In this document: positions 1 to 24,607 of the stretch, in pieces | Numbering within the stretch: the stretch's first letter is position 1 | Layout of the letters: every line of letters starts with the position of its first letter | Origin: a virus | Direction: 5' to 3' (one strand) | DNA length: 25,815 nucleotides | Virus record (IMG/VR): IMGVR_UViG_3300027969_000391 | Location: 1-25,815 of that record | Notes under the pieces: model-generated | What the model was told of the DNA's origin: nothing | Databases searched by the model: none | Seen by the model: the letters and a program-made list of their open reading frames with translations, nothing else | Translations under genes and position numbers: made by a program

Positions 1-1173
1 ATAATATGGGTTTCTCAATTGTTAGACGGTACATCCGTTGACCCGTTAGATTTTGCTAGCGCTGAAGGTTCACCTGACGGCGTAGTTGCGCTCATATCCG
101 ATCACCGTGAGTTATGGGTATTCGGTACGGATTCTGTAGAAGTTTGGTATGACTCAGGCGCTGCCGACTTTCCTCTAACACGTATTCAAGGCGCTTTTAA
201 TGAGATTGGTTGCGTTGCACCATTTTCAGTTGCTAAGTTAGACAACGGCTTATTTTGGCTAGGCACAGACGCCCGTGGTCAAGGTATTGTCTACCGTGCT
301 AACGGCTACACAGGCGTTCGGGTTTCTACCCATGCAATTGAGTGGCAAATACAACAGTACGGCAATATATCTGATGCAGTAGCGTATACCTATCAGCAAG
401 ACGGTCATGCGTTTTATGTAATTAGTTTCCCAACAGGCAACGCTACGTGGGTTTATGACGTGTCTACGCAGGCGTGGCATGAGCGCGCAGGTTTTACTGA
501 CGGCAATTTTACAAGGCACCGTAGCAATAACCAATGTAACTTTGGCGGTACAATTATTGTCGGTGACTTTGACAACGGCAATATTTATCAACTTGATTTA
601 GAAACTTACGCCGATAACGGGCAACCTCAAAAATGGTTACGTTCTTGGCGCGCTTTAATGCCAGGGCAAAATAACTTTAAACGTACCGCACAACATACTT
701 TGCAACTTAATGCTGAAACAGGCGTTGGGTTAGAGCTATACCCAGCATACGACGCTGAAGATTTAATAACAGAAGATGGCAAAGAAATTACGGCTGAGTA
801 CATACAACTTAGTTTAGCTACGCAAGCTGGATTAGAATTAACTACAGAAGCTAATGATAATTTTGAAATTATAGGTACTAACACAACCAGTAATGATATT
901 AACGGGTATATTTTAGCAACTAATGGATATGACGCTGCGCCTGGATATAATCCTCAAGCTATGTTGCGTTGGTCAGATGATGGTGGCCACACATGGTCAA
1001 ATGAACATTGGTCGTCAATGGGTAAGATTGGTCAATATGGATTCCGTACTTTTTGGCGTCGGCTTGGTATGACTCTTAAACTGCGTGATCGTGTTTATGA
1101 AGTGTCAGGCACCGATCCAGTAAAGATAGCCATTACCAACGCTGAAATATTGTTGTCGCCAACTAATGCCTGA
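1..1173 (+). CDS. P22 gp10-like packaged-DNA stabilisation / tail accessory protein (5' partial)
   Basis: The reading frame is open from base 1, so the true start lies upstream; about 390 residues are visible, against roughly 470 in P22 gp10, so perhaps 80 N-terminal residues are missing. The segment with ISDHRELWVFGTDSVEVWYD, then FPLTRIQGAFNEIGCVAP and LDNGLFWLGTDARGQGIVYR is the hallmark of the phage stabilisation (gp10) family. In P22 this protein joins the tail machine after DNA packaging, helps plug the portal and links the tail tube to the needle and tailspikes. The C-terminal part (WSDDGGHTWSNEHW) also fits. The gene overlaps the fibre gene by 8 bases, and ejection-type genes follow, as expected in a P22-like tail module. 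The TTG at 19 is an internal codon, not a start. Confidence 0.9.
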   Translation: MIWVSQLLDGTSVDPLDFASAEGSPDGVVALISDHRELWVFGTDSVEVWYDSGAADFPLTRIQGAFNEIGCVAPFSVAKLDNGLFWLGTDARGQGIVYRANGYTGVRVSTHAIEWQIQQYGNISDAVAYTYQQDGHAFYVISFPTGNATWVYDVSTQAWHERAGFTDGNFTRHRSNNQCNFGGTIIVGDFDNGNIYQLDLETYADNGQPQKWLRSWRALMPGQNNFKRTAQHTLQLNAETGVGLELYPAYDAEDLITEDGKEITAEYIQLSLATQAGLELTTEANDNFEIIGTNTTSNDINGYILATNGYDAAPGYNPQAMLRWSDDGGHTWSNEHWSSMGKIGQYGFRTFWRRLGMTLKLRDRVYEVSGTDPVKIAITNAEILLSPTNA

Positions 1174-2069: not shown

Positions 2070-2603
2070 ATGCAAATTGAGATGAACGTCACTTACGGAC
2101 AAGGGTTTTTGCCTACACTACCTATGTTTGCAAATATGGGTTTGACTAAGATTAACGTAACGCCTGATAAGATTGTTAAGTTGCAAGATGAGTTGCTTAA
2201 AATGGAACAAGCAGACATTGTAACTGAGCATACTTTTATACCAAATGTATACGAAAGAAAGATTACTGTACCGCCTTGGTGTGTATTAACGGGGGCAGCG
2301 CATAAAACAGATTACAAAGTTCGGCTAGAAAAGGGTACAATTGCTGTTAATATTGGCACAGAAGTAAAAATATTGACTGCGCCATGCGAATTTAATGCTT
2401 GTGCTGGTGAACAACGTGTTGGCCGTGTATTTGAAGATGAGGTGATTTGGGTAGATATTTACGCAAATCTTGATGATTGTAAAGATATAGCAGTCCTAGA
2501 AGATCGACTTTATGTTGTGCCTGAATGTGGGTTAGGGGAAAATAGAGTTAAACAATTAGCGACAACAAACACAGCTAAACTTGTTAATGAGGGAGAAATA
2601 TAA
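2070..2603 (+). CDS. Unknown virion-module protein, beta-rich, possibly cupin-like
   Basis: 177 residues, starting one base after the fibre stop and overlapping the next gene as TAATG. I do not recognise the family with confidence. It has an N-terminal stretch of about 60 residues with a short amphipathic helix (KIVKLQDELLKMEQ), then alternating short beta-like strands (ERKITVPPWCVLTGAAHK, KGTIAVNIGTEVKILTAP, EDEVIWVDIYAN) that resemble a small jelly-roll or cupin barrel. There is no cupin metal motif that I can place. Five cysteines are scattered through the second half. Its place between fibre and ejection genes suggests a minor virion or assembly role. Confidence 0.6.
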   Translation: MQIEMNVTYGQGFLPTLPMFANMGLTKINVTPDKIVKLQDELLKMEQADIVTEHTFIPNVYERKITVPPWCVLTGAAHKTDYKVRLEKGTIAVNIGTEVKILTAPCEFNACAGEQRVGRVFEDEVIWVDIYANLDDCKDIAVLEDRLYVVPECGLGENRVKQLATTNTAKLVNEGEI

Positions 2604-3598
2604 TGGCAGGATGGGTAGCAGCATCAATAGGTGGCGCAGCCTTAATAGGCGCTTATTCATCTAACCGAGCATCTAGCTCGCAATCACAAGCGGCGGGTGA
2701 GGCTACACAAGCGCAGCGAGAGATTGCTGATCAGCAAACTGCGCTTCAACGTGAACAATATCTAAAACAACTTGAGTTAAACGCGCCTTTTAGAGAAGCT
2801 GGCCTTACTGGTCAAAATATGTTGCTAGCGCAGTTGCAAGGCCCATACGGTTCAGCCAAATTTGGCGGTGTGCCAGGCTACGACCCAGCTTCTGCTATGA
2901 GGAATTTTAGTGGCGTTGCAGGTTACGATCCAGCGTCTGCCATGAAAAATTTTAGTGCAGCCGATTTTCAAACTGATCCAGGCTATGCGTTTCGTCTATC
3001 CGAAGGTATGAAAGCTCTTGACCGCACCGCAGCGTCAAGAGGTGGGCTATTATCTGGCGCTACTCTTAAAGGAGCGCAGCGCTATGGATCTGATTTAGCA
3101 TCGCAAGAATACGGCAATGCGTACAATCGTTTTCAAGCTAATCGTGCCACGCAATCGCAAGAATATCAAAATGCGTTTAACCGCTATCAAGCCGAACGTG
3201 CGGCTCAAGAACAAAACTACGGTAACGCTTTTAATCGTTTTCAAGCGGAACGATCAAACACGCTTGCACCATTGCAAAGTTTAGCTGGCGTTGGACAATC
3301 AGCTACGCAACAAGCGCAACAAGCGTCACAAAACTTTGCTACAGGAGCTGCTAATACATTAGCTAATTATGGCAACGCTCAAGCTAGTAACATTATTGGC
3401 TCAGGTAACGCAAGAGCATCTGGTTACATGGGTGCGGCTAATGCGTTAAGTAGCGGTGTAGGCCAAGGGTTAAATTTTTATCAAAATCAAAATTTAGTAA
3501 ATCAATTACAAGCTAACCGTAATGTAGGTGGCGGTGGGGGCGGATATATTATGCCTGAACCATATTCATATGGCGGCGCAGATGCCTACTCAATGTAA
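2603..3598 (+). CDS. Ejection / DNA transfer-like protein with internal repeats
   Basis: 331 residues; the ATG overlaps the previous stop as TAATG and GGGAG lies upstream. The opening AASIGGAALIGAYSSNRAS, followed by a Gln/Ala-rich helix (QREIADQQTALQREQYLKQL) and NAPFREAGL, is the form seen in phage proteins annotated as DNA transfer protein p32-like. Such proteins are carried in the capsid and ejected to help DNA cross the envelope. Residues 89-103 and 104-118 are a near-perfect 15-residue duplication (GVPGYDPASAMRNFS / GVAGYDPASAMKNFS). Residues 169-222 hold three 18-residue helical repeats with the core NAxNRxQAxR. The C-terminus is Gly/Asn-rich. Family call is by sequence style and location. 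Confidence 0.75.
   Translation: MAGWVAASIGGAALIGAYSSNRASSSQSQAAGEATQAQREIADQQTALQREQYLKQLELNAPFREAGLTGQNMLLAQLQGPYGSAKFGGVPGYDPASAMRNFSGVAGYDPASAMKNFSAADFQTDPGYAFRLSEGMKALDRTAASRGGLLSGATLKGAQRYGSDLASQEYGNAYNRFQANRATQSQEYQNAFNRYQAERAAQEQNYGNAFNRFQAERSNTLAPLQSLAGVGQSATQQAQQASQNFATGAANTLANYGNAQASNIIGSGNARASGYMGAANALSSGVGQGLNFYQNQNLVNQLQANRNVGGGGGGYIMPEPYSYGGADAYSM
2867..2956 (+). repeat. 45-bp tandem duplication in the ejection protein gene
   Basis: Two in-frame 45-bp units (2867-2911 and 2912-2956) encode GVPGYDPASAMRNFS and GVAGYDPASAMKNFS. The DNA has diverged mostly at codon third positions while the peptide is kept, so the duplication is old and held by selection on the protein. Confidence 0.85.
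3107..3268 (+). repeat. Three 54-bp units coding an 18-residue helical repeat
   Basis: Units at 3107-3160, 3161-3214 and 3215-3268 encode EYGNAYNRFQANRATQSQ, EYQNAFNRYQAERAAQEQ and NYGNAFNRFQAERSNTLA. The aromatic and Asn/Arg positions are fixed, which suggests a repeated helical surface. An 18-residue period is five alpha-helical turns, so each repeat presents the same face. Confidence 0.85.
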
Positions 3599-4896: not shown

Positions 4897-6858
4897 ATGG
4901 CACTTCAAACCGCAACCAATCCACAAACAGGTGAGCGTGTCGCTTTAATCGGCGACCAATGGCAACCTATTAAGGAATCCGCAACCAATAAAGAAGGCGT
5001 TAAAGCCTTTTTAATTGGTGATAAATGGCTAACTGATCAGCCTGCGCCAGTTGAAGAAACACGCGCTAACGTAGGCGCTGAAGTACCAGCCTGGGGTAAA
5101 GAATATCCTAAGATATATTCAGCGGCTGTTAAAGCACGTCAAATTGCAGGCCCTAGCGTAGAGATGTTAGGTGGTGTAATTGGCGGTACTATTGGCGCAG
5201 GCGCAGGTACTCTAGCAAGTCCAACACTTGTAATTAATCCTGTTACTGGCGGTGTTGCTGGTTCAGCGTTAGGGTACGGTATTGCTAAAGAAGGTTTGGA
5301 AGCTGCCGATGTAGCGTTAGGACTTAGGCCTTCACAAACAGTTGCACAAAGATTACCCGCCGCTGCAACTAATGTTGCTGAAGGTGCAACATACGACATA
5401 TTAGGTAGGACTGTTGTAGGCCCTGCAATTAACAAATTAGTTAACTTAGGTTCTTCTGCATTGGGTAAAGTAGCAGACATTAACCAGTTACCTAAACAAT
5501 TGGCCGGAAGAATAGCTAGAGAATCATTTGAAACACCTGCTAACGTACAGGCAGGCCGTAATGCGCTACAACAATCTGTACAAGCAGGACAAAACTTAAC
5601 AGCTCAACAAGCATTGGCACAAGGTGGAATAGTTGCACCTGGCACCCAAGCGGTATTACAAAAAGTACAAGCAAAAGTTGCACCGTCAATTCAGGCTACC
5701 AAAATGCTTGAAGATGAAGCTGCGCGTATGTCAACCATTAAAAATATTACGCCTGATATTGACGCTGCGGTTACTGCAAGACGTATGGCGTCTAAACCGT
5801 TGTATGAGGCGGCGGACGCGGCTGTTGTTCCTATTGATGCGGATATATCAAGTATTCTAAGTCGGATGCCAGACGGCACGCTAGCAAAAGCAGCCGAAAT
5901 TGCTAAGATGGAAAACCGGCCATTTATTATGGGTAAAGCAGGTGCAGGCACGCCAATTGCTACAGGTGATGTAGATATGTTTGGTAAGCCAATTATGATT
6001 ACCCCAGGTGCTAAAGCAGGTAATATGACTGGCGAAACCATGCACTATATCAAACGTGCATTAGGTGACGTAGCGTATGGCCCAACAGCTACAACAGGGA
6101 TTGGTCAAGACGCGCAACGTGCAGCTCGCACATTATTAGACGATTACGTTAAAGTTTTCGAAACTAAAGTGCCTGAATACGGTCAAGCCCGTCAAATCTT
6201 TTCGGATATGTCAGCGCCTGTTAATCAAGCGCAAGTGCTTAAAGAAATGGTATCTGTGTTGGAAAAGCCAGGTGGGGGCGAGCGTATTGGGCCATTCTTA
6301 AATACTTTAGGGCGTGGCGAAGAAGCTATGCTTAAACGTGCCGGTGGTCGTGGTGGCCCACGCTTTGAAGCGCTTAATGAAGTATTAACACCTGACCAGT
6401 TAAAAGTAGTAAAAGAAGTTGCAAAAGAACTAGAAACACAAGCATCTGTAGGTAAGCAGATCTCGCAAGGTCAGCAACGCGCCACAGAATTGCTTAAAGA
6501 TGAGTTACCTAACTATCGTTTGCCTAACGTGTTTAACGTAATTGCAACAACAGCCAATAAATTTTTAGATACTTTAGGCGTCAAAGTAGGTAAAAAGACC
6601 CTTATTGAGCTAGCTAAAGCAGGTGAAACAGCTAAATCGTTTGATGAGCTATTAGCTACATTACCCGCGCAAGAGCGTAGTAAAGTGTTAAAAGCAATAA
6701 ATGACCCTGCAACATGGAAAGCCGTTGTACCCGCTACAGGTAAAGTAATGATGGGTATTGAAGGCAGATTAAGTACACCAAATGCTACCGTGACGCTAGG
6801 CGAACCAACTAACGCATTAGCCCCCAAACAACAAAACCAAAACGCACTTGCAAGGTAA
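4897..6858 (+). CDS. Large Ala-rich ejection-type protein
   Basis: 653 residues, ATG preceded by AAAGG. It opens with two copies of a short beta motif (VALIGDQWQPI, then AFLIGDKWL). Residues about 87-130 are very Gly/Ala-rich and hydrophobic (GGVIGGTIGAGAGTL, GGVAGSALGYGIAKE), as in membrane-inserting glycine-zipper segments of internal virion proteins. The rest is long, mostly helical and Ala/Lys/Glu-rich, ending in a compact domain (TANKFLDTLGVKVGKKT to LPAQERSKVLKAINDPATWK) that recurs in phage injection proteins. It probably enters the host envelope with the DNA. No transglycosylase motif is visible. The function is inferred from context and composition. Confidence 0.65.
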   Translation: MALQTATNPQTGERVALIGDQWQPIKESATNKEGVKAFLIGDKWLTDQPAPVEETRANVGAEVPAWGKEYPKIYSAAVKARQIAGPSVEMLGGVIGGTIGAGAGTLASPTLVINPVTGGVAGSALGYGIAKEGLEAADVALGLRPSQTVAQRLPAAATNVAEGATYDILGRTVVGPAINKLVNLGSSALGKVADINQLPKQLAGRIARESFETPANVQAGRNALQQSVQAGQNLTAQQALAQGGIVAPGTQAVLQKVQAKVAPSIQATKMLEDEAARMSTIKNITPDIDAAVTARRMASKPLYEAADAAVVPIDADISSILSRMPDGTLAKAAEIAKMENRPFIMGKAGAGTPIATGDVDMFGKPIMITPGAKAGNMTGETMHYIKRALGDVAYGPTATTGIGQDAQRAARTLLDDYVKVFETKVPEYGQARQIFSDMSAPVNQAQVLKEMVSVLEKPGGGERIGPFLNTLGRGEEAMLKRAGGRGGPRFEALNEVLTPDQLKVVKEVAKELETQASVGKQISQGQQRATELLKDELPNYRLPNVFNVIATTANKFLDTLGVKVGKKTLIELAKAGETAKSFDELLATLPAQERSKVLKAINDPATWKAVVPATGKVMMGIEGRLSTPNATVTLGEPTNALAPKQQNQNALAR

Positions 6859-6860
6859 TT

Positions 6861-7058
6861 ATGGAAGCCGAAAACAATACACGAATTAGCGTGCATGAGG
6901 CAGTATGCGCGGAACGATATAAGCGCATTGAAGAATCGTTTGAGCGTGGCGCTAAACGTATGCAACGAATTGAGTATATGTTGTACGCATTAATGGTCGT
7001 TACGTTCTTTGGTAAAGACACTTTTATGGAGTTATTACAAGCTGTAGTAATTAAATAA
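6861..7058 (+). CDS. Small membrane protein at the start of the lysis cassette
   Basis: 65 residues beginning 2 bases after the ejection gene; GCAAGG lies upstream. The first 35 residues are charged and helical (VHEAVCAERYKRIEESFERG), followed by one short hydrophobic segment (YMLYALMVVTFFG) near residues 39-51. Family not recognised. Its stop overlaps the next small membrane gene as TAATG, so it is translated with the lysis genes and may modulate holin action, though nothing proves this. Confidence 0.6.
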   Translation: MEAENNTRISVHEAVCAERYKRIEESFERGAKRMQRIEYMLYALMVVTFFGKDTFMELLQAVVIK

Positions 7059-8044: not shown

Positions 8045-8577
8045 TTAGCAATTGGGATAAGTCTTTCGATATGGTCATCACCCATGAGGGTGGTTTTACT
8101 AATGATGAGCGTGACCCTGGCAATAAGCTACCAGACGGGCGCAAAGGATGCACCATGTGGGGATGTACTCAAGCCAATTGGGAGAAGTACATCGGGCATA
8201 CTGTTACACAAGATGATATGAAGGCGCTAAAGAAAGAAGATGTTAAACCGTTATACAAAAGAGATTATTGGGATGCCGTTCGAGGTGATGATTTACCTGC
8301 TGGCGTGGATTACGCCGTGTTTGATTTTGCTATTAATGCTGGGCCAGCCGCTGCTCGTAAGATGATACAGAAAGCCCTCGGCGTAACTGCTGATGGTTCT
8401 ATTGGCCCTGCGACCATGAAAGCTATCCAAGATGCAGACGGTAAAGACTTGCTAGACAAGTTCAGCAACAGCAAAGAAGCGTTCTACAAGTCGTTGCCGA
8501 CCTTCCAGACATACGGCAAGGGATGGCTCAAACGTGTTGCTGACGTGCAAACATCCGCGTCAACCATGTTAGCGTGA
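8041..8577 (+). CDS. Endolysin, GH108 lysozyme with C-terminal peptidoglycan-binding domain
   Basis: 178 residues. The N-terminal motif THEGGFTNDERDPG, with the conserved EGG glutamate at residue 16, marks glycoside hydrolase family 108, which cleaves the MurNAc-GlcNAc bond. The usual GGxTxxGI region is replaced by RKGCTMWGCTQANW, a known variation in length and content. Residues 90-125 (DYAVFDFAINAGPAAARKMI, then DGSIGPATMKAI) match the PG_binding_3 domain that accompanies GH108. No signal peptide is visible, so export depends on the upstream holin. Start is coupled to the previous gene by ATGA. Confidence 0.92.
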   Translation: MISNWDKSFDMVITHEGGFTNDERDPGNKLPDGRKGCTMWGCTQANWEKYIGHTVTQDDMKALKKEDVKPLYKRDYWDAVRGDDLPAGVDYAVFDFAINAGPAAARKMIQKALGVTADGSIGPATMKAIQDADGKDLLDKFSNSKEAFYKSLPTFQTYGKGWLKRVADVQTSASTMLA

Positions 8578-8778
8578 CTGCTGCCGAGCCATCTCACGTG
8601 CTTGCAAGCATAACTCAGCGTATTTTTTAGCGGTATCAGGGTGCCAGCCACCCATCAATACGTCACAATTAACTTTCGCTCTATCTTCCCTGCGCGTTAG
8701 CTCGGTCATGCCGACCAAGTAAGTGCAAACAATAATGCCGAATAACGCTACTAAAATAACTACGCCGTCTGTTTTCAT
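8569..8778 (-). CDS. Small membrane protein, last gene of the minus-strand operon
   Basis: 69 residues; its end overlaps the last 9 bases of the convergent lysozyme gene, with no terminator between them. One N-terminal span (GVVILVALFGIIVCTYLVG, residues 5-23) is followed by a charged helical tail with two cysteines (C38 and C57). The start overlaps the stop of the sigma-like gene (ATGA). Family not recognised. Confidence 0.65.
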   Translation of the reverse strand: MKTDGVVILVALFGIIVCTYLVGMTELTRREDRAKVNCDVLMGGWHPDTAKKYAELCLQAREMARQQSR

Positions 8779-17297: not shown

Positions 17298-19610
17298 ATG
17301 CACAACTTTTTAGAGTTTATCACGAATTTAGCGCCAAATGGCGAGACTGCCTTGATTGTGCGCCAAAAGCCACAACTAAAAGATGGCGAATTACAGTTGC
17401 ACGCTGACGGCGCTATTAAATGCACATGGCCTGCGTACTTGCCAAGTCAGAAGATGCGTGCGGGTGAGGCGTGGTACATCAATACGGCGTCATTTATCAT
17501 AGACCGTTTTGAGGAAGGACGCGTATCCGCGTCGGCAGCCAACTGCGAGTTCGTTCTCTTTATGATGTTAGATGATATTGGTACAAAGTCGAAAACACCG
17601 CCCCTTGCACCGACATGGATTCTTGAGACAAGCCCTGATAATTTTCAATACGGCTATGCTTTTTCTGAGCAACCCACAAAGGGTGAGTTCACGGCAGCAG
17701 TCAAAGCTATTGCAGCCGCAGGGTACACCGACGCTGGCGCTACTAATGCAGTTCGTAATGTGCGTCTGCCAGGCTCGATTAACCTAAAGCCTGGGCGTGA
17801 TAACTTTGAAGCCAAGCTAGTGGAGTTTCACCCTGAGCGTGACTACACGCTAGGCGACATTTGCACGGCGTTGGGCGTAACGCCTGCGCCTGCTGATACG
17901 AACTACTATGCGCCAATCAGGTTAGCCGACAATGGTGGCGATGATGTGTTAGCATGGATGAATGATCAAGGCATGGTATTGTCGAAGATCAACGGCGAAG
18001 GGTGGTTATCAGTCACTTGCCCTAACAACGCCGAACACACCGATGGCAACCCCGAAGGTCGGTACAAACCCCTAGATCGTAGTTATTGTTGCCTGCACTC
18101 GCATTGTGTCGATTTCGGTAGCCAAACATTTTTAGATTGGGTTGCCGCTAACGGTGGCCCTAAAGTTACACATGGCCTGCGTGACAAATTGATTGCCGAG
18201 GCGATGACTGTTGCGCTTGCCAAGATTACACCTAGCGATATGTTCACCGATGACGCCGATGCCAAGATAGCCGAAGTCGAGCGTAAAGAGTTAGGTCGTG
18301 TCGAGAAGTCCAAGTGGTATGAGCGTTTCGCTTACGTTCAAGACGATGAGTCTTATTTTGATATGCAAGACCGTCGTGAGGTGTCCAGACAGACGTTCAA
18401 TGCGCTATTTCGTCATATCAAGTGTATGTCACTTCATGCGCCTACCACTAGAGTCGAAGCATCTATTTCCTACGATCAGAACAGACAAGCGTCAGGCGCC
18501 AAAGCGCTTGTGGGGATTACCTACGCTGCGGGTGAGACTGTACTCGTAGCCCGTGACGGCGACTTGTACGGCAACCGTTGGCGTGACGCTAGACCTGATG
18601 TGTCTAGTGTCGTTGCGTCTGAGTCGAAAATAGCGTCCTGGTTAGACCATTGCCGTAACCTCATACCTGACCCAACCGAGTTAGAACACTTGTTTGACAT
18701 CATGGCTTGTAAGTTACAAAACCCACAGATTAAGATTAACCATGCCGTCTTGCATGGTGGCGATGAGGGTTGTGGTAAGGACACGATGTGGGCGCCGTTC
18801 ATCTGGGCAGTCTGTGGTTCGCACCTAAAGAACCGTGGCATCATGGATAACAACTCCATCAATAGTCAATGGGGTTATCAACTTGAGTCTGAGATTCTAT
18901 TGATTAACGAACTGAAAGAACCAGACGCCGCCGCCCGTAGGCAGTTGGCGAACCAACTCAAACCAATCATAGCCGCCCCGCCTGAGATGTTACCGATTAA
19001 TCGTAAGGGTTTACACCCATATCAAATGGCTAACCGTGTGTTCGTTTTAGCGTTCTCGAATGACCCTGTTCCAATCTCTTTAGCGTCTCAAGATCGTAGA
19101 TGGTTTTGCGTGTGGAGTTCGTTGCCACGCATGGACGCAAGAGAAGCCAAACAGATGTGGGATTGGTATCGCAACGGTGGGTTCGAATTGATTGCTGCGT
19201 GGTTACTGGCTCGTGATGTGAGCCAGTTCAATCCATCAGCAGCGCCAGCCATGACTGAGTTTAAGGCTAACCTGGTTGAACACGGCATGAGTATGGCAGA
19301 ATCGTTCCTTGTTGAGATGCTACGCGCTCGCAAGGGTGAGTTTGCCAAGGGCGTGATTGGTTCACCATTTCATGCGCTTTGTGATCGTTTGACTGGGTTA
19401 GCGCCCTCTAATGTGAAAATACCGCAAGCAGCTTTGTTACACGCTCTTAAAGAAGCTGGTTGGGTAGACTGTGGGCGGTTGAAGTCGAGAGAGTTTGACA
19501 CCAAGAAACACATCTTTGCCGATCCCGAATTAGCGACTATTCTAAGTAAGTCTGAGCTGAGACGCGCATTAGAGGATGCGCCTACGGCGCAAGTAGTCAA
19601 CACAAAATGA
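17298..19610 (+). CDS. Primase / SF3-like (DUF5906) helicase fusion
   Basis: 770 residues, with GGAAGGAAACACAAA before the ATG. The N-terminal part looks like a RepB/PrimPol-type primase: CEFVLFMMLDDIG with the DD pair at 92-93, APTWILETSPDNFQYGYAF, and VRNVRLPGSINLK. A putative zinc knuckle follows (C241, H247, C264/C265, H267/H269, C270). The C-terminal part has Walker A LHGGDEGCGKDTMW (K494), Walker B-like ILLINELKE (534-541), and a sensor-like VFVLAFSNDPVPI with DRRWFCV, typical of the DUF5906 branch of SF3 helicases. It should prime and unwind DNA for the adjacent family A polymerase. Iterons lie directly after its stop. Confidence 0.88.
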   Translation: MHNFLEFITNLAPNGETALIVRQKPQLKDGELQLHADGAIKCTWPAYLPSQKMRAGEAWYINTASFIIDRFEEGRVSASAANCEFVLFMMLDDIGTKSKTPPLAPTWILETSPDNFQYGYAFSEQPTKGEFTAAVKAIAAAGYTDAGATNAVRNVRLPGSINLKPGRDNFEAKLVEFHPERDYTLGDICTALGVTPAPADTNYYAPIRLADNGGDDVLAWMNDQGMVLSKINGEGWLSVTCPNNAEHTDGNPEGRYKPLDRSYCCLHSHCVDFGSQTFLDWVAANGGPKVTHGLRDKLIAEAMTVALAKITPSDMFTDDADAKIAEVERKELGRVEKSKWYERFAYVQDDESYFDMQDRREVSRQTFNALFRHIKCMSLHAPTTRVEASISYDQNRQASGAKALVGITYAAGETVLVARDGDLYGNRWRDARPDVSSVVASESKIASWLDHCRNLIPDPTELEHLFDIMACKLQNPQIKINHAVLHGGDEGCGKDTMWAPFIWAVCGSHLKNRGIMDNNSINSQWGYQLESEILLINELKEPDAAARRQLANQLKPIIAAPPEMLPINRKGLHPYQMANRVFVLAFSNDPVPISLASQDRRWFCVWSSLPRMDAREAKQMWDWYRNGGFELIAAWLLARDVSQFNPSAAPAMTEFKANLVEHGMSMAESFLVEMLRARKGEFAKGVIGSPFHALCDRLTGLAPSNVKIPQAALLHALKEAGWVDCGRLKSREFDTKKHIFADPELATILSKSELRRALEDAPTAQVVNTK

Positions 19611-19613
19611 ACC

Positions 19614-19682
19614 AAAAAATGGGAGCGTTTGTATGCAAAAAATGGGAGCGTTTTCCTACAAAAAACGGGAGCGTCTCTATGC
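19614..19682 (+). repeat. Three tandem 23-bp iterons after the primase-helicase gene
   Basis: Units at 19614-19636, 19637-19659 and 19660-19682 share A6-(T/C)-GGGAGCGT, then a more variable 8-base end (TTGTATGC, TTTCCTAC, CTCTATGC). The period of 23 is not a multiple of three, so the reading frame differs in each unit and coding is unlikely to maintain it. Spacing and place are as in iteron-type replication origins. Confidence 0.85.
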
Positions 19683-19756
19683 AAGAGTTAAAACAAAGTG
19701 ATTTGTAGGGGCGGCCTTAAAGGGTCGCCTGGTTGATTGATTGAAAAAATAAAAAG

Positions 19757-20147: not shown

Positions 20148-20795
20148 TTAAGCCGCTTTTTTAAGCATAATAATTTTATGCATTGTTTTACCGTGTGCTG
20201 GGTAAGCGATTAATGGAATAGACTTATCATAGCAAGCTCGGCAACCATTGCATTTTCCATCATTGGCATAGGCTTGGCATAGCGTCATTCCCTTGGCAAC
20301 ATCATCCGCCGAGGCAATGATCACTGACCCATGCAATCCCTTAATATATTCGCCCATTACGCTATCGCTCGAAAATCGTACGCTAACATTTTTTAACAAT
20401 TTCATTGACTCTAATACAAGTCTATATTTTGGGAATTTATGCATTCTAGTCGGAAGCCAATGTTTTACCCAAGGGGTACGTTTCATTACTTCGAGAATTT
20501 TCTCGGCTAACCCCAAAGCAAACATATCGCCGCTATCGAACCAACGGAAATAACGGCTAGATTCTAAAGCTTTTACCATATCATCCGCCCAGTCTAACCG
20601 TTGCCAATCTAAGCGATTAAATTCCCTAGGGGCTTTTACATTAGGAAAGCGATAATTGCCATTGACGGCATAACATCCTTTACACGCATCGACCAGTTCG
20701 CCATTTTCAATCGATCCTTGGCAAGTATCCCTCGCTTGCAATGACCAAGATAAAATGCCATCGAGTTTACTTGTTTTACTAAGTTTTACACTCAT
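20148..20795 (-). CDS. GP88-like Cys-rich phage protein
   Basis: 215 residues, with AAAGGAATC upstream. The N-terminus KLSKTSKLDGILSWSLQARD, then TCxG and DACKGCYAVNGNYRFPNV, matches the gene product 88 (GP88) family found in many phages. The cysteines fall in two groups: C25, C38 and C41, then C173, C182, C185 and C188 (CQAYANDGKCNGCRACYD). The second group resembles a ligand set for an iron-sulfur cluster or zinc. RWFDSGDMFALGLAEKI in the middle is also typical. Biochemical role unknown to me. The protein lacks the CxxxCxxC radical SAM motif in the expected N-terminal place. Confidence 0.8.
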   Translation of the reverse strand: MSVKLSKTSKLDGILSWSLQARDTCQGSIENGELVDACKGCYAVNGNYRFPNVKAPREFNRLDWQRLDWADDMVKALESSRYFRWFDSGDMFALGLAEKILEVMKRTPWVKHWLPTRMHKFPKYRLVLESMKLLKNVSVRFSSDSVMGEYIKGLHGSVIIASADDVAKGMTLCQAYANDGKCNGCRACYDKSIPLIAYPAHGKTMHKIIMLKKAA

Positions 20796-20844
20796 AGTTT
20801 AGATTCCTTTACTTTAGTTTATTGATTGCCAAAATAACAATCCC

Positions 20845-20871
20845 ATAAGCATCTACCAGGTAAATGCTTAT
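20845..20871. promoter_or_regulatory. 27-bp near-perfect palindrome, operator candidate
   Basis: ATAAGCATCTACC (20845-20857) and GGTAAATGCTTAT (20859-20871) are inverted copies with one mismatch around a single central A. It lies 7 bases after the stop of the 155-residue gene and upstream of the GP88-like gene on the minus strand. The tiny centre is better for a dimeric DNA-binding protein than for an RNA hairpin, and no T-run follows on either strand. Confidence 0.6.
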
Positions 20872-20878
20872 AGGCTTA

Positions 20879-21346
20879 TTACTCTATATAGTCAGTTAAT
20901 TTAAAAGATTGATTAGCATCTAATTCTTTTAACCATACCTCAAGAGTATCTTTTGACATGGTATGCAAATAAAAATACAAAGCATCGTATAAAACATGGG
21001 GTTCGCATACATTGGCAATATCGGACGCCAACTCTTCGAAATTGACTTGGCTTAACTCAAAATAACCCTCTATCTTTTTTAAACCTTTGGCGGCGATAAA
21101 CCCTTTACAAAATTCGATTAGATTGGCTTTTTTGAAATCATCGAATGGCCCAACGCAATCAATATAATTGCCTGAATTTTGATCATCCTCGGAGGCGTAA
21201 GTACAAAAGCCCCAGTCCTCGCCTTCTGTAGGAATGCTGCAATCATTATTGTTTACGGCAAATATGATGCCATATTCCCTAAAATGTAATTCGTAATGGT
21301 CGCATCCACCACCAGTATAAACTTCCTCGATTTCTATTTTTCTCAT
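20879..21346 (-). CDS. 155-residue acidic protein of unknown function
   Basis: AAAGGAAAACACAAA precedes the ATG. The product is acidic, with a beta-rich N-terminal half (IEIEEVYTGGGCDHYELHFR, EYGIIFAVNNNDCSIP, EDWGFCTYASEDD) and a helical C-terminal half (LYDALYFYLHTMSKDTLEVW). Five cysteines do not form a recognisable metal motif. No family recognised. It lies in the promoter-proximal part of the minus cluster. Confidence 0.7.
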   Translation of the reverse strand: MRKIEIEEVYTGGGCDHYELHFREYGIIFAVNNNDCSIPTEGEDWGFCTYASEDDQNSGNYIDCVGPFDDFKKANLIEFCKGFIAAKGLKKIEGYFELSQVNFEELASDIANVCEPHVLYDALYFYLHTMSKDTLEVWLKELDANQSFKLTDYIE

Positions 21347-21359
21347 TTTGTGTTTTCCT

Positions 21360-21443
21360 TTAGTTTAAGATTAGTTGAAATATTGCTAAGATTAATGGCG
21401 ATACTACTAATAGAGTAATGATTAAAATGTCAGATTGTTTCAT
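21360..21443 (-). CDS. 27-residue membrane miniprotein
   Basis: One span (ILIITLLVVSPLILAIFQLI) preceded by MKQSD; GGAT lies 9 bases upstream as a modest ribosome site. Its stop falls in the strong ribosome site of the next gene, as in other genes of this cluster. Confidence 0.5.
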   Translation of the reverse strand: MKQSDILIITLLVVSPLILAIFQLILN

Positions 21444-21454
21444 GGCTTTTTATC

Positions 21455-21751
21455 CTAATCCCCAGTAAAGTAAAAAATCATGTCATCTATGGCGATTTGG
21501 AAAGCTTCAGAGTTCTTTACTGTTGAGAGTAAGAAATCTTCCGAATGAGGGATTTCGTTTAAGTATTTAAGGATTTCTTCCAAAGCAAAAAATTCGCTCA
21601 AATCACCCCAGTTTTTTAGATCCACATCTTTCCAATTTTGCGAATCGGTTTGTAATTCTTCGAACCTATCCACCAATTCGGAAAACCAAAAATCCGTTTG
21701 ATCGGTAAAATCACACATTGGGTAAAACTGTTTTAATTGGGTTTGTGTCAT
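21455..21751 (-). CDS. 98-residue acidic protein of unknown function
   Basis: I choose the ATG at 21751 (MTQTQLKQFYP), because CAAAGGAAAACACAAT precedes it; a longer in-frame start at 21868 would overlap the next gene and has no site. The product is strongly acidic and aromatic (FTDQTDFWFSELVDRFEELQ, AIDDMIFYFTGD), a composition that resembles small phage inhibitors or DNA mimics, but no family is recognised. A GGGGGC/GCCCCC hairpin lies just upstream. Confidence 0.65.
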   Translation of the reverse strand: MTQTQLKQFYPMCDFTDQTDFWFSELVDRFEELQTDSQNWKDVDLKNWGDLSEFFALEEILKYLNEIPHSEDFLLSTVKNSEAFQIAIDDMIFYFTGD

Positions 21752-21769
21752 ATTGTGTTTTCCTTTGTT

Positions 21770-21785
21770 GGGGGCTTTTGCCCCC
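21770..21785. other. Compact GC hairpin in an intergenic leader
   Basis: GGGGGC-TTTT-GCCCCC is a perfect 6-bp stem with a 4-base loop. On the minus strand it sits between the 59-residue gene and the ribosome site of the 98-residue gene. It has no T-run, so it may be an mRNA stabiliser or processing site rather than a terminator. Confidence 0.55.
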
Positions 21786-21791
21786 ATTTGT

Positions 21792-21971
21792 TTAGTTGAA
21801 TTTAATATGATGTTTAGTATCGGCATATGAGAACTGACGGCGTGAGGCAATCGCTTCACATATTGCACTATTGTGTTTTACTACTTTCCTATCGTGCGGC
21901 GCAAAATATGAGAATGGTACATCGTTTCTTAGTGCTTCCCTAAAAGCTATTTTGTGTAATTTGTTTAACAT
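21792..21971 (-). CDS. 59-residue basic protein of unknown function
   Basis: First gene of the minus cluster, preceded by TAAAGGAAAACAAA and about 40 bases after the predicted transcription start. Basic and His/Lys-rich (FAPHDRKVVKHNSAICEAIA, DTKHHIKFN). Family not recognised. Its position next to a strong promoter suggests early, high expression. Confidence 0.65.
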   Translation of the reverse strand: MLNKLHKIAFREALRNDVPFSYFAPHDRKVVKHNSAICEAIASRRQFSYADTKHHIKFN

Positions 21972-22045: not shown

Positions 22046-22204
22046 CTTATTTTGTTACATTTATGCAAATAATTTTGATGTGGATAATTTGCATTGTCCA
22101 TGTGGATAATGATGTGGACAATGGCAAATTGATTGAAAGCATTGCCAGACTTCGATGTGGATATTGTGGATAGTTATATTTGACTAATTCAATGAAGTAA
22201 AAAT

Positions 22205-22213
22205 TGGTATATA
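22205..22213 (+). promoter_or_regulatory. Possible extended -10 element inside the array
   Basis: TGGTATATA, with TGn before TATATA, lies in the AT-rich gap. TTGACT at 22180-22185 is 22 bases away, too far for a normal -35. If active it would transcribe the right half of the array towards the terminase genes. Confidence 0.25.
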
Positions 22214-22294
22214 TAGGGTTGCTATTGTTGCGACTTAAAAGTACTTGTCCAAACTGCCCATTTGACCCACGTTTGTCCCTTGCCGTTTGTTCAC

Positions 22295-22355
22295 GGCTTT
22301 TGCCTTTCCCATGTTTGTGGGCAATGTGGACTATGGCTTTTGCCTTGCCCATGTT
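22295..22355 (+). repeat. 21-bp direct repeat at 40-bp period inside the array
   Basis: GGCTTTTGCCTTTCCCATG plus TT at 22295-22315 recurs at 22335-22355 with one change (T to G). Each copy contains one 9-mer of the array, so the array grew partly by duplication of a 40-bp segment. Confidence 0.8.
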
Positions 22356-22502
22356 GTCCACAATTAAAGGCATGGCGCATTAACTAAAAAACGATTGTCC
22401 ATGTTGCCCACATTGCCCATGCCCTCAAAGCCTTATATCTATTGGCTTGTAGGCTTGTGCGGCCCGAAACCCCTTATTTCTGCTGGCTTCCAGGTTTTGC
22501 AT

Positions 22503-22542
22503 GGGGGGGGTAGGGCCGGCGACCGACCGGTCACGCTGCCGG
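22503..22542. other. G-run and GC-rich dyad upstream of terminase; possible packaging (cos/pac) site
   Basis: Eight G (22503-22510), then GGGCCGGCGACC (22513-22524), the palindrome GACCGGTC (22525-22532), and CCGGC (22516-22520) mirrored by GCCGG (22538-22542). The two dyads are nearly concentric. GC content is far above the surroundings. Similar short GC-rich dyads next to the small terminase gene mark cohesive-end sites in some phages; this is inference. Confidence 0.4.
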
Positions 22543-22582
22543 AGGGTTTGCGCAAACTTTTTATTTTTTTATAAAAAATCTA

Positions 22583-22597: not shown

Positions 22598-23080
22598 ATG
22601 TTTGATAACTTTCATTCCTATGTGTATGAGCCACGCAAGCTAGAAGCTACCGAGGCTAGATTGCAACGCATCTACGACGCTGCCAAGTTAGGACTCAAAG
22701 GCGACACACTCGCACTCGCTGCTGGGATGCGCCCTACCGAATATCGACAGCTCACGCAACTAGATCCCATTGCTGAGTACGCTGAACAAAAAGGCAAAGC
22801 CGATGGCGAGATGGAGTTATCAGCAATACTGCACAAAGCCGCAGCCGATGGCGACGCTAAAGCTGCGCTAGAAATCCTCAAGCATCAACATGGCTGGGTA
22901 GCTAAACAACAACTGTCAATAGATGTTGAGCAGCGCATCTCGATCACAGCCGCACTCGAACAAGCGCAACACCGCGTCATCGAAAGCGTGTTCAAACAAG
23001 TGGAAAGCCAACCAACCGACGCCGAAATGCTCCGCGTGAAACCTACGCTTAATACCGAACGCAAACAAAAAGTCGCATAA
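22598..23080 (+). CDS. Terminase small subunit
   Basis: 160 residues, directly before the large subunit (stop and start adjoin). The N-terminal part (ARLQRIYDAAKLGLKGDTLA, LAAGMRPTEYRQL) reads as a helix-turn-helix for DNA recognition. A helical middle (LSAILHKAAADGDAKAALEI, LKHQHGWVAKQQ) resembles the oligomerisation region of phage small terminases, with SIDVEQRISI before a tail that contacts the large subunit. Small terminases bind the pac or cos site and start packaging; here the candidate site lies just upstream. No ribosome site is seen. Confidence 0.8.
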   Translation: MFDNFHSYVYEPRKLEATEARLQRIYDAAKLGLKGDTLALAAGMRPTEYRQLTQLDPIAEYAEQKGKADGEMELSAILHKAAADGDAKAALEILKHQHGWVAKQQLSIDVEQRISITAALEQAQHRVIESVFKQVESQPTDAEMLRVKPTLNTERKQKVA

Positions 23081-24607
23081 ATGCAATCCACTATCTACTC
23101 AGCGCAAGACGAACAAGAGTTAATGTCACGCCTGTGGAGTCCTGCGATTAAGGACAACCCGCTAGCGTTTGTGATGTATTGTTATCCGTGGGCGCAACAG
23201 GGTACGCCGCTAGAGAATTTCACAGGGCCACGCAAGTGGCAACGTGAAATCTTACTGGACATAGCCGAACATATTAAGCAGAATCAAGGCAAGCTGGACT
23301 TTGATGTATTGCGAGAAGCGGTAGCGTCTGGGCGTGGAATTGGTAAGTCAGCGCTAGTCTCATGGCTAGAGCATTGGATGTTAACAACACGAATAGGCGC
23401 AACCGTCATCGTGTCGGCTAACTCGGAATCGCAGCTGCGCTCAGTCACCTGGGCGGAGATCACTAAGTGGCTATCCATGTCAATTAACAGCCATTGGTTC
23501 GAAGTGTCAGCCACCAGAGTGATGCCAGCCAAATGGTTGACTGAGCTAGTCGAGCGGGATTTGAAAAAAGGCACACGGTACTGGGGTGTTGAAGGACGGC
23601 TATGGTCGGCGGAGAATCCTGATGCTTACGCTGGGGTTCACAACTACGACGGGGTGATGGTTATATTCGATGAGGCGTCGGGTATTGATGATTCTATTTG
23701 GGCGGTAACAAGCGGGTTTTTCACAGAGAATACGCCCAACAGGTTTTGGATGGCATTTAGCAACCCACGGCGTAATAGCGGGTATTTCTATGAAGCGTTC
23801 CACTCCAAGCGGGAGTTTTGGAAAAACCGCAACATCGACTCACGCCAAGTCGAAGGTACAGACAAGAACGTCTATGAGCAGATCATCGCTGAGTACGGCT
23901 CGGACTCGGTGCAAGCTCACGTTGAAGTGTACGGTATGTTCCCGAACGCGTCCGATGATCAGTTCATTAGCGTCAACACAGTCGAAGAAGCTATGCAACG
24001 GGAAAAGTACAAGGACAATACTGCGCCTATCATCATTGGGGTTGACCCTGCACGGTTTGGGTCGGACTCAACCGTCATCGCTGTTCGGCAAGGGCGGGAT
24101 GTCATAGCCATCAAGCGGCACAAGGGTGACGATACGATGGAAACCGTCGGACGGGTGATCGAAGCTATCGAGGAATATCAACCGACGCTAGTCAACATCG
24201 ACGAAGGTGGACTAGGAGCTGGTGTAGTGGATAGGCTAAAAGAGCAACGCTATAAGATCAAAGGTGTTAACTTTGGGAACAAAGCAAAGAACAGTATGAT
24301 GTATGGTAACAAACGGGCAGAGATGTGGGGTGATATGCGCGAATGGCTCAAGTCAGCCAGCGTGCCTACGGATCGGTACTTGAAAAGTGATCTGATCTCG
24401 CCCATGATGAAGCCTGATAGCAAGGGAAGCATATTTTTGGAATCGAAGAAAGATATGAGATCAAGAGGGCTGGCGTCACCTGACGCAGCCGACGCTATTG
24501 CGTTGACTTTCGCGTTTCCTGTTGCACATCGGGAATATAAGGGTATAATCCGAAAGAATACGTACCAGAATCAAGGTGCAGTCTCTAACTCTTGGATGGG
24601 GTCATAA
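23081..24607 (+). CDS. Terminase large subunit (ATPase / nuclease)
   Basis: 508 residues. ATPase: Walker A ASGRGIGKS (82-90), Walker B VMVIFDEAS (192-200, D197 and E198), and coupling motif-like FWMAFSNPRR (222-231). RNase H-like nuclease: IIIGVDPARFGSD (D322), VNIDEGGLGAG (D374) and the final acidic set SPDAADAIALT (D468 and D471). These residues make headful or site-specific cuts during packaging. Length and domain order are typical. The gene ends in TAATG with the next gene. Confidence 0.95.
   Translation: MQSTIYSAQDEQELMSRLWSPAIKDNPLAFVMYCYPWAQQGTPLENFTGPRKWQREILLDIAEHIKQNQGKLDFDVLREAVASGRGIGKSALVSWLEHWMLTTRIGATVIVSANSESQLRSVTWAEITKWLSMSINSHWFEVSATRVMPAKWLTELVERDLKKGTRYWGVEGRLWSAENPDAYAGVHNYDGVMVIFDEASGIDDSIWAVTSGFFTENTPNRFWMAFSNPRRNSGYFYEAFHSKREFWKNRNIDSRQVEGTDKNVYEQIIAEYGSDSVQAHVEVYGMFPNASDDQFISVNTVEEAMQREKYKDNTAPIIIGVDPARFGSDSTVIAVRQGRDVIAIKRHKGDDTMETVGRVIEAIEEYQPTLVNIDEGGLGAGVVDRLKEQRYKIKGVNFGNKAKNSMMYGNKRAEMWGDMREWLKSASVPTDRYLKSDLISPMMKPDSKGSIFLESKKDMRSRGLASPDAADAIALTFAFPVAHREYKGIIRKNTYQNQGAVSNSWMGS

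Follow-up and report, generated by a model that had tools for sequence, protein, structure and literature searches.

In phage P4, primase, helicase and origin binding are combined in one protein, alpha, and the origin (ori1) carries repeated short sites. SaPI5 PriRep1, SaPIbov1 Rep and SCCmec Cch2 are self-loading helicases of the AAA+/SF3 type, fused to a primase in SaPI5, and SaPI Rep and Cch2 were reported to bind iterons downstream of their own genes through a C-terminal domain (PMC7581432). Covariation of initiator and iterons is already known from the PLE satellites of Vibrio cholerae, in which the DNA-binding domain of RepA_N changes together with the iterons of the origin (ori), with swap experiments, and switching was proposed as an escape from an origin-directed nuclease (PMC8263062). 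The NrS-1 phage polymerase (PDB 6k9c, 6k9e) was reported to have an 8-nt recognition sequence that occurs twice in the genome and forms no array (PMC7102993).

The window analyzed here (the whole stretch of 25,815 nt, an IMG/VR virus record) is related to the named phage genomes ctNMl277 (MW202483) and DSL-LC05 (OR003940), which are annotated with P22-type portal, coat and stabilisation proteins. It encodes a primase-helicase and holds, beside the terminase genes, an array of 9-bp repeats (Table 1). This locus is best explained by an SF3 primase-helicase that the phage encodes as its own self-loading initiator and that acts at an iteron origin, in the manner of SaPI Rep and P4 alpha; very probably the array is the replication origin of the phage, bound by the C-terminal winged helix of its own primase-helicase and not by host DnaA. 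No P4 structure appeared in the fold lists, an absence that does not speak against a relation. The likeness to SaPI lies in the helicase type with its fused primase, a C-terminal DNA-binding domain (predicted here), short iterons downstream of the gene (PMC7581432) and a fold match to SaPI5 PriRep1 (7pds/7ola). In contrast to SaPI, the present system occurs in P22-like podophages, has a DUF5906-type helicase, carries its array of contiguous 9-bp sites 2.5 kb away beside the terminase, and comprises, within a single phage lineage, some dozen classes of 9-mer whose differences trace to one wing loop. PLE RepA_N is similar in its covariation with the origin iterons, but belongs to an unrelated initiator family, and its two replicon types compare with the dozen or so iteron classes of the present lineage. 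Among solved structures, that of NrS-1 is most closely related to the helicase part (sequence E 4e-9, fold E 3e-15), with two genome copies of its site instead of an array. A literature search returned no description of such a system in P22-like podophages, of this lineage's origin, of its range of repeat classes or of a wing-loop localisation.

Table 1. Coordinates of the array, the putative initiator and the terminase genes in the window.
Feature	Position	Strand	Remarks
Primase-helicase, 770 aa, proposed array-binding initiator	17298..19610	+	RepB_primase 83-166, DUF5906/SF3 helicase 485-601 (Pfam)
C-terminal domain, residues 655-770, predicted winged helix	19260..19607	+	AlphaFold2 model
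Wing loop, residues 729-735, KSREFDT, segment tracking the 9-mer class	19482..19502	+	Covariation
Left half of iteron array	22079..22173	-	TTGTCCACA-type, mostly minus: 22079, 22101, 22113, 22156, 22165; one + site, 22094
AT-rich gap between the halves, candidate unwinding region	22174..22244		73% AT
Right half of array	22245..22421	+	Mostly + sites, 9-bp tandem: 22245/22254, 22345/22354, 22395/22404/22413; one inverted pair, 22316/22325, minus
Small terminase beside the array, does not track array class	22598..23080	+	Named by position directly before large terminase; no Pfam or PHROGs match
Large terminase	23081..24607	+	99-100% identical between phages of different array classes

Sites and layout of the array

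The original prediction of a dense array of sixteen 9-mers at 22079–22421, beside the terminase genes, proved real, but the sites at 22273, 22287 and 22305 were among the few weak matches. Eleven of the 29 TTRYCCA sites of the 25.8-kb window fell within about 340 bp (22081–22419), and the total of 29 was itself high against shuffled sequences (mean 14.7, SD 3.8), none of which reached it. All eight exact TTGYCCAYR sites of the window lay inside the array. When one mismatch was allowed, 49 such sites were found window-wide against 41 expected, which is no overall enrichment, indicating that the signal is one of local clustering. The two exact complements that had been noted are copies of TTATCCACA at 22079 and 22101, both on the minus strand and the only two that the window contains. 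The pairs arranged head to tail and the triplet, all at 9-bp spacing, were present as claimed.

The array adjoins the small terminase gene and is intergenic, with minus-strand genes on one side and the terminase genes on the other. Its left sites mostly face one way and its right sites mostly the opposite way, and the left half had a similar layout in relatives whose arrays are built from other 9-mers. The gap between the halves, which had been likened to a duplex-unwinding element, was richer in AT than its flanks (73% versus 65% and 52%), but this richness was mild and was not the maximum, as AT content climbed to 80% immediately to the left of the array, starting at about 22010. An AT-rich gap between the array halves was also seen by eye in the sequences of relatives. 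The window and its relatives thus have two iteron sets flanking a mildly AT-rich region, as in origins of the SaPI and P4 type. A class-independent core within the gap (CCTATATA), an idea taken from the window and two plasmids, was not general.

Array classes in related phages

Relatives were collected by TerS and TerL matches, and the array was found beside TerS in many of them, as the original prediction had proposed to check, with its place kept but its 9-mer differing by class. About a dozen different 9-mers were seen upstream of TerS, and many relatives kept the array place and a similar layout yet had no TTRYCCA site there. Read directly, the replacement repeats were TTGTCAAAT/TTGACAATT, ATGACTAAC/ATGACCTAC, ATGACCCAC and others. 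Even among phages with 99–100% identical large terminases, the place and layout of the array were the same and the 9-mer was swapped (TTGTCCACA, TTGACAATT, ATGACTAAC, ATGACCCAA and others). Site logos suggested a WTGWC half common to most classes, with the remaining four bases variable; the commonest spacing, which bears on the filament first suggested, was 9 bp in most classes and 8 bp in the TTGACAATT class. Array detection was heuristic, giving 158 arrays and leaving 46 of 204 loci without one above threshold; wing types such as GSADFHT and ASSDFTT had no array above threshold in the region that the search covered.

Scrambling of the 9-mers in close relatives had been named in advance as evidence against a function. 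It does occur, but as an array-wide exchange of one 9-mer for another with a matching change in the initiator, which strengthens the functional reading. That the class can differ between phages with 99–100% identical TerL argues strongly against host DnaA as the binding partner and makes TerS an unlikely one. The proposal of an origin or titration site (decoy) for host DnaA drew on the two exact TTATCCACA sites, but close relatives share the layout without any DnaA box: TTATNCACA boxes were absent from relatives with arrays of other 9-mers, and the arrays of near-identical phages use sequences lacking such a box. The DnaA-box look is therefore limited to the TTGTCCACA class, and a DnaA site is extremely unlikely.

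In the window, as in the relatives read, the array immediately adjoins TerS, which would suit a recognition array for the small terminase, whether pac, as had also been suggested, or cos. Where the class differs, however, no TerS residue was fixed by array class and TerL was 99–100% identical, so that we consider this function very unlikely. There is next to no probability that the repeats are the coding sequence of a 108-codon ORF on the minus strand, although its frame is open in the window and is partly alignable in same-class relatives: stop codons break it in the relatives G001 and G009, and no counterpart turned up in relatives of other classes. It is not a conserved gene, and the coding explanation fails.

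Other elements were noted around the array. A G-rich element (GGGGGGGTAGGGCC...) between the array and TerS (window 22500–22560) was kept upstream of TerS across array classes, and is possibly a promoter, terminator or packaging signal. Of 158 loci, 62 had the sequence GGGTAGGG in the region of the array, against 12 in control pieces. The locus of DSL-LC05 (L156) had its own TGACCCACTGG-type repeats at the same place upstream of TerS; a search with the primase-helicase of the window gave no match in this genome, which is annotated with another primase/polymerase.

The primase-helicase and covariation of its wing loop

Both a primase and an SF3/AAA+ helicase were present in the putative initiator, based on Pfam and fold matches, and residues 330–770 matched the folds of the NrS-1 CTR, the poxvirus D5/E5 helicases and SaPI5 PriRep1. 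In the AlphaFold2 model, the C-terminal 116 residues had a winged-helix-like arrangement (mean pLDDT 84), in which residues 729–735 sit in a loop between two strands, the predicted wing, and the helix at about 710–720 was well conserved. Foldseek returned no significant PDB match for the C-terminal domain alone; a second look gave weak fold matches, mostly to winged-helix domains (Z < 7), and a PDB sequence search with the C-terminal profile gave nothing credible. No obvious stand-alone or nuclease-fused copy of this domain was found in the loci collected, the short matches looking like genes cut by locus ends. A scan of genome contigs returned six uncultured-genome contigs, with a taxonomy too mixed to name a host.

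In this lineage the array lies about 2.5 kb downstream of the primase-helicase gene, with minus-strand genes between them. For those at 20148–21868 (one GP88 family), hardly any counterpart was seen in the close relatives that were compared. Tandem repeats begin right behind the primase-helicase gene (23-bp × 3.1 at window 19613–19684) and differ strongly between phages, with minisatellites in others (L252, L255, L260, L302, and L304).

Shared gene families were compared between six TTGTCCA and six TTGTCA phages of a group with TerL identity >99%. Class-fixed residues of the primase-helicase in this group were 729, 731, 732, 734, 735, 747, and 748 only, all near the C-terminus, while TerS, TerL, PolA, the SNF2 helicase, the DUF2800 nuclease and a 91-aa nuclease had none. 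Only primase-helicase residues tracked the class switch among families well represented in the closest phages, the class-fixed residues of other families (window 19–1173, 1166–2068, 2070–2603, 2603–3598, and 6809–7021) coming from just two second-class phages. A 69-aa gene at 8569–8778 on the minus strand was rejected as a partner: only two second-class phages carry it, and G013 and G014, which are of different classes, match about equally (38–39%). Given this and its membrane-like sequence, its class-fixed residues were treated as chance. The small protein has two sharply different alleles among close relatives.

Across the relatives, wing types were paired with particular repeats: KSREFDT with TTGTCCACA, ASADFKS with TTGACAATT, M-S-R types with ATGACTAAC, ASGDFQS with ATGACCCAA, HSGKYQT with ATGACCAAA, NSKDY types with ATGACGTCC, GSTELPT with ATAGCCTAG, and ASRDYTT/ASRDHTT with TTGCTTACA. 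Among 86 classed loci, with classes set by regular expressions written after the data were seen, residue 729 differed in 100% of 344 cross-class pairs and in 0% of 368 same-class pairs (N-terminal identity ≥85%; pairs not independent). With the same labels, at least 37 class changes were placed on a tree built from primase-helicase residues 301–700, and about 10 of 11 independent contrasts of the TTGTCCA class with the rest linked K729 with that class, with none opposing (p ∼0.002). A scan of all 158 arrays that uses no labels and was corrected for relatedness by N-terminal distance gave a similar picture, array similarity following the wing loop more closely than any other segment of the primase-helicase: the best 7-residue window was 728–734, with a partial rho of 0.35, against a mean of 0.05 and a maximum of 0.26 elsewhere. 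At N-terminal distances <10%, mean array similarity was 0.65 when the wings were at most one residue apart, and 0.10 when they were at least three apart.

These results point to the predicted C-terminal winged helix as the part of the protein that decides iteron specificity. The wing is not always decisive, since ASGDYPS occurred with TTGACAATT in G019 but ASGDFPS with ATGACCCAA, and G034 and G032 kept K729 and D734, yet CACTAACTT dominates their arrays. When the last third of the primase-helicase gene was compared among G010, G003 and G009, the wing codons of G010 were nearly identical to those of the TTGTCA-class G003 over about 35 nt, with both flanks diverged, as if a very short cassette had moved.

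The proposed origin and its wider occurrence

In the mechanism that we propose, the origin would comprise some 16 iterons, arranged as two halves of mostly opposite orientation on either side of the AT-rich gap, with the 9-mers bound by the C-terminal winged-helix domain of the primase-helicase. Of each site, the shared half, WTGWC in most classes, is probably read by the invariant helix, and the four variable bases by the wing loop with the aid of residues 747/748. Adjacent 9-bp sites would load SF3 helicase subunits to form rings on both sides, the rings would melt the gap, and the fused primase domain would prime synthesis for the PolA-type polymerase of the phage. Binding, ring loading, melting and origin activity are envisaged here by analogy with SaPI Rep and Cch2 (PMC7581432). 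Phages of the lineage would have switched 9-mers together with wings, so that each initiator serves its own origin.

An array for a phage initiator, or replication origin, was among the roles first suggested, and the switching of the 9-mer with the wing of the primase-helicase argues for it at the level of sequence. The GC-skew check recommended for an origin gave no such signal, as cumulative GC skew had no consistent extremum at the array in nine relatives. The distance of about 2.5 kb between array and gene also counts against an origin, unlike the position in plasmids. Plasmids lend an origin separate support: four small ones (from P. mirabilis, E. coli, K. pneumoniae and C. freundii) encode a related DUF5906-type primase-helicase, and in 4/4 the iteron array lay directly downstream of the gene and was the most repetitive stretch found in the locus. 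Cultured phages showed the same position, several Casjensviridae among them: BcepNazgul, PspYZU01, JS26, phiAxp-2 and AXY1 each had an array with its own repeat directly downstream of the related gene, and SS2019XI had a weaker one. In the Vibrio phages MZH0603 and PS25B.1, and in KLEP18-1, PCA1, Saba and Erythrobacter R22L, the stretch directly behind the related gene held no convincing array.

The primase-helicase might instead bind the array as an operator or as a copy-number or partition site, with replication starting elsewhere. Covariation alone points to binding partners and not to origin activity, and since the array is intergenic, control of either side is possible. We nevertheless regard this as unlikely, because class 9-mers outside the array were just scattered, with densities of 0.04–0.65 per kb across the window and those larger relatives that were checked, and because plasmid arrays follow the primase-helicase gene, the expected place of an origin.

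The differences in array between near-identical phages may represent natural switching of specificity, in which the seven-residue wing (plus 747/748) and the iterons co-change repeatedly, by a readable residue-to-base code, and which avoids cross-activation or allows escape from origin parasites; we hold the chances of this to be about even. Such a code is suggested by the arrays, since in most classes the WTGWC half is constant and the classes are set apart by the remaining four bases. Class switching would stop coinfecting replicons from activating each other, or evade satellites or nucleases aimed at the origin.

The lineage would then offer a large natural record in which protein and DNA partners are matched (226 distinct C-termini and 158 detected arrays) and specificity has switched many times on a near-constant background. 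This would make directly testable both how a DNA-binding protein moves between specificities and how a self-loading phage helicase comes to be placed at its origin. By extension, the DUF5906-type primase-helicases of many other phages and of some small plasmids may be initiators that bind an origin, with an iteron array near the gene; such arrays would help to find origins in many unannotated genomes. Among cultured phages, BcepNazgul, Serratia JS26, phiAxp-2 and AXY1 carry arrays of this kind.
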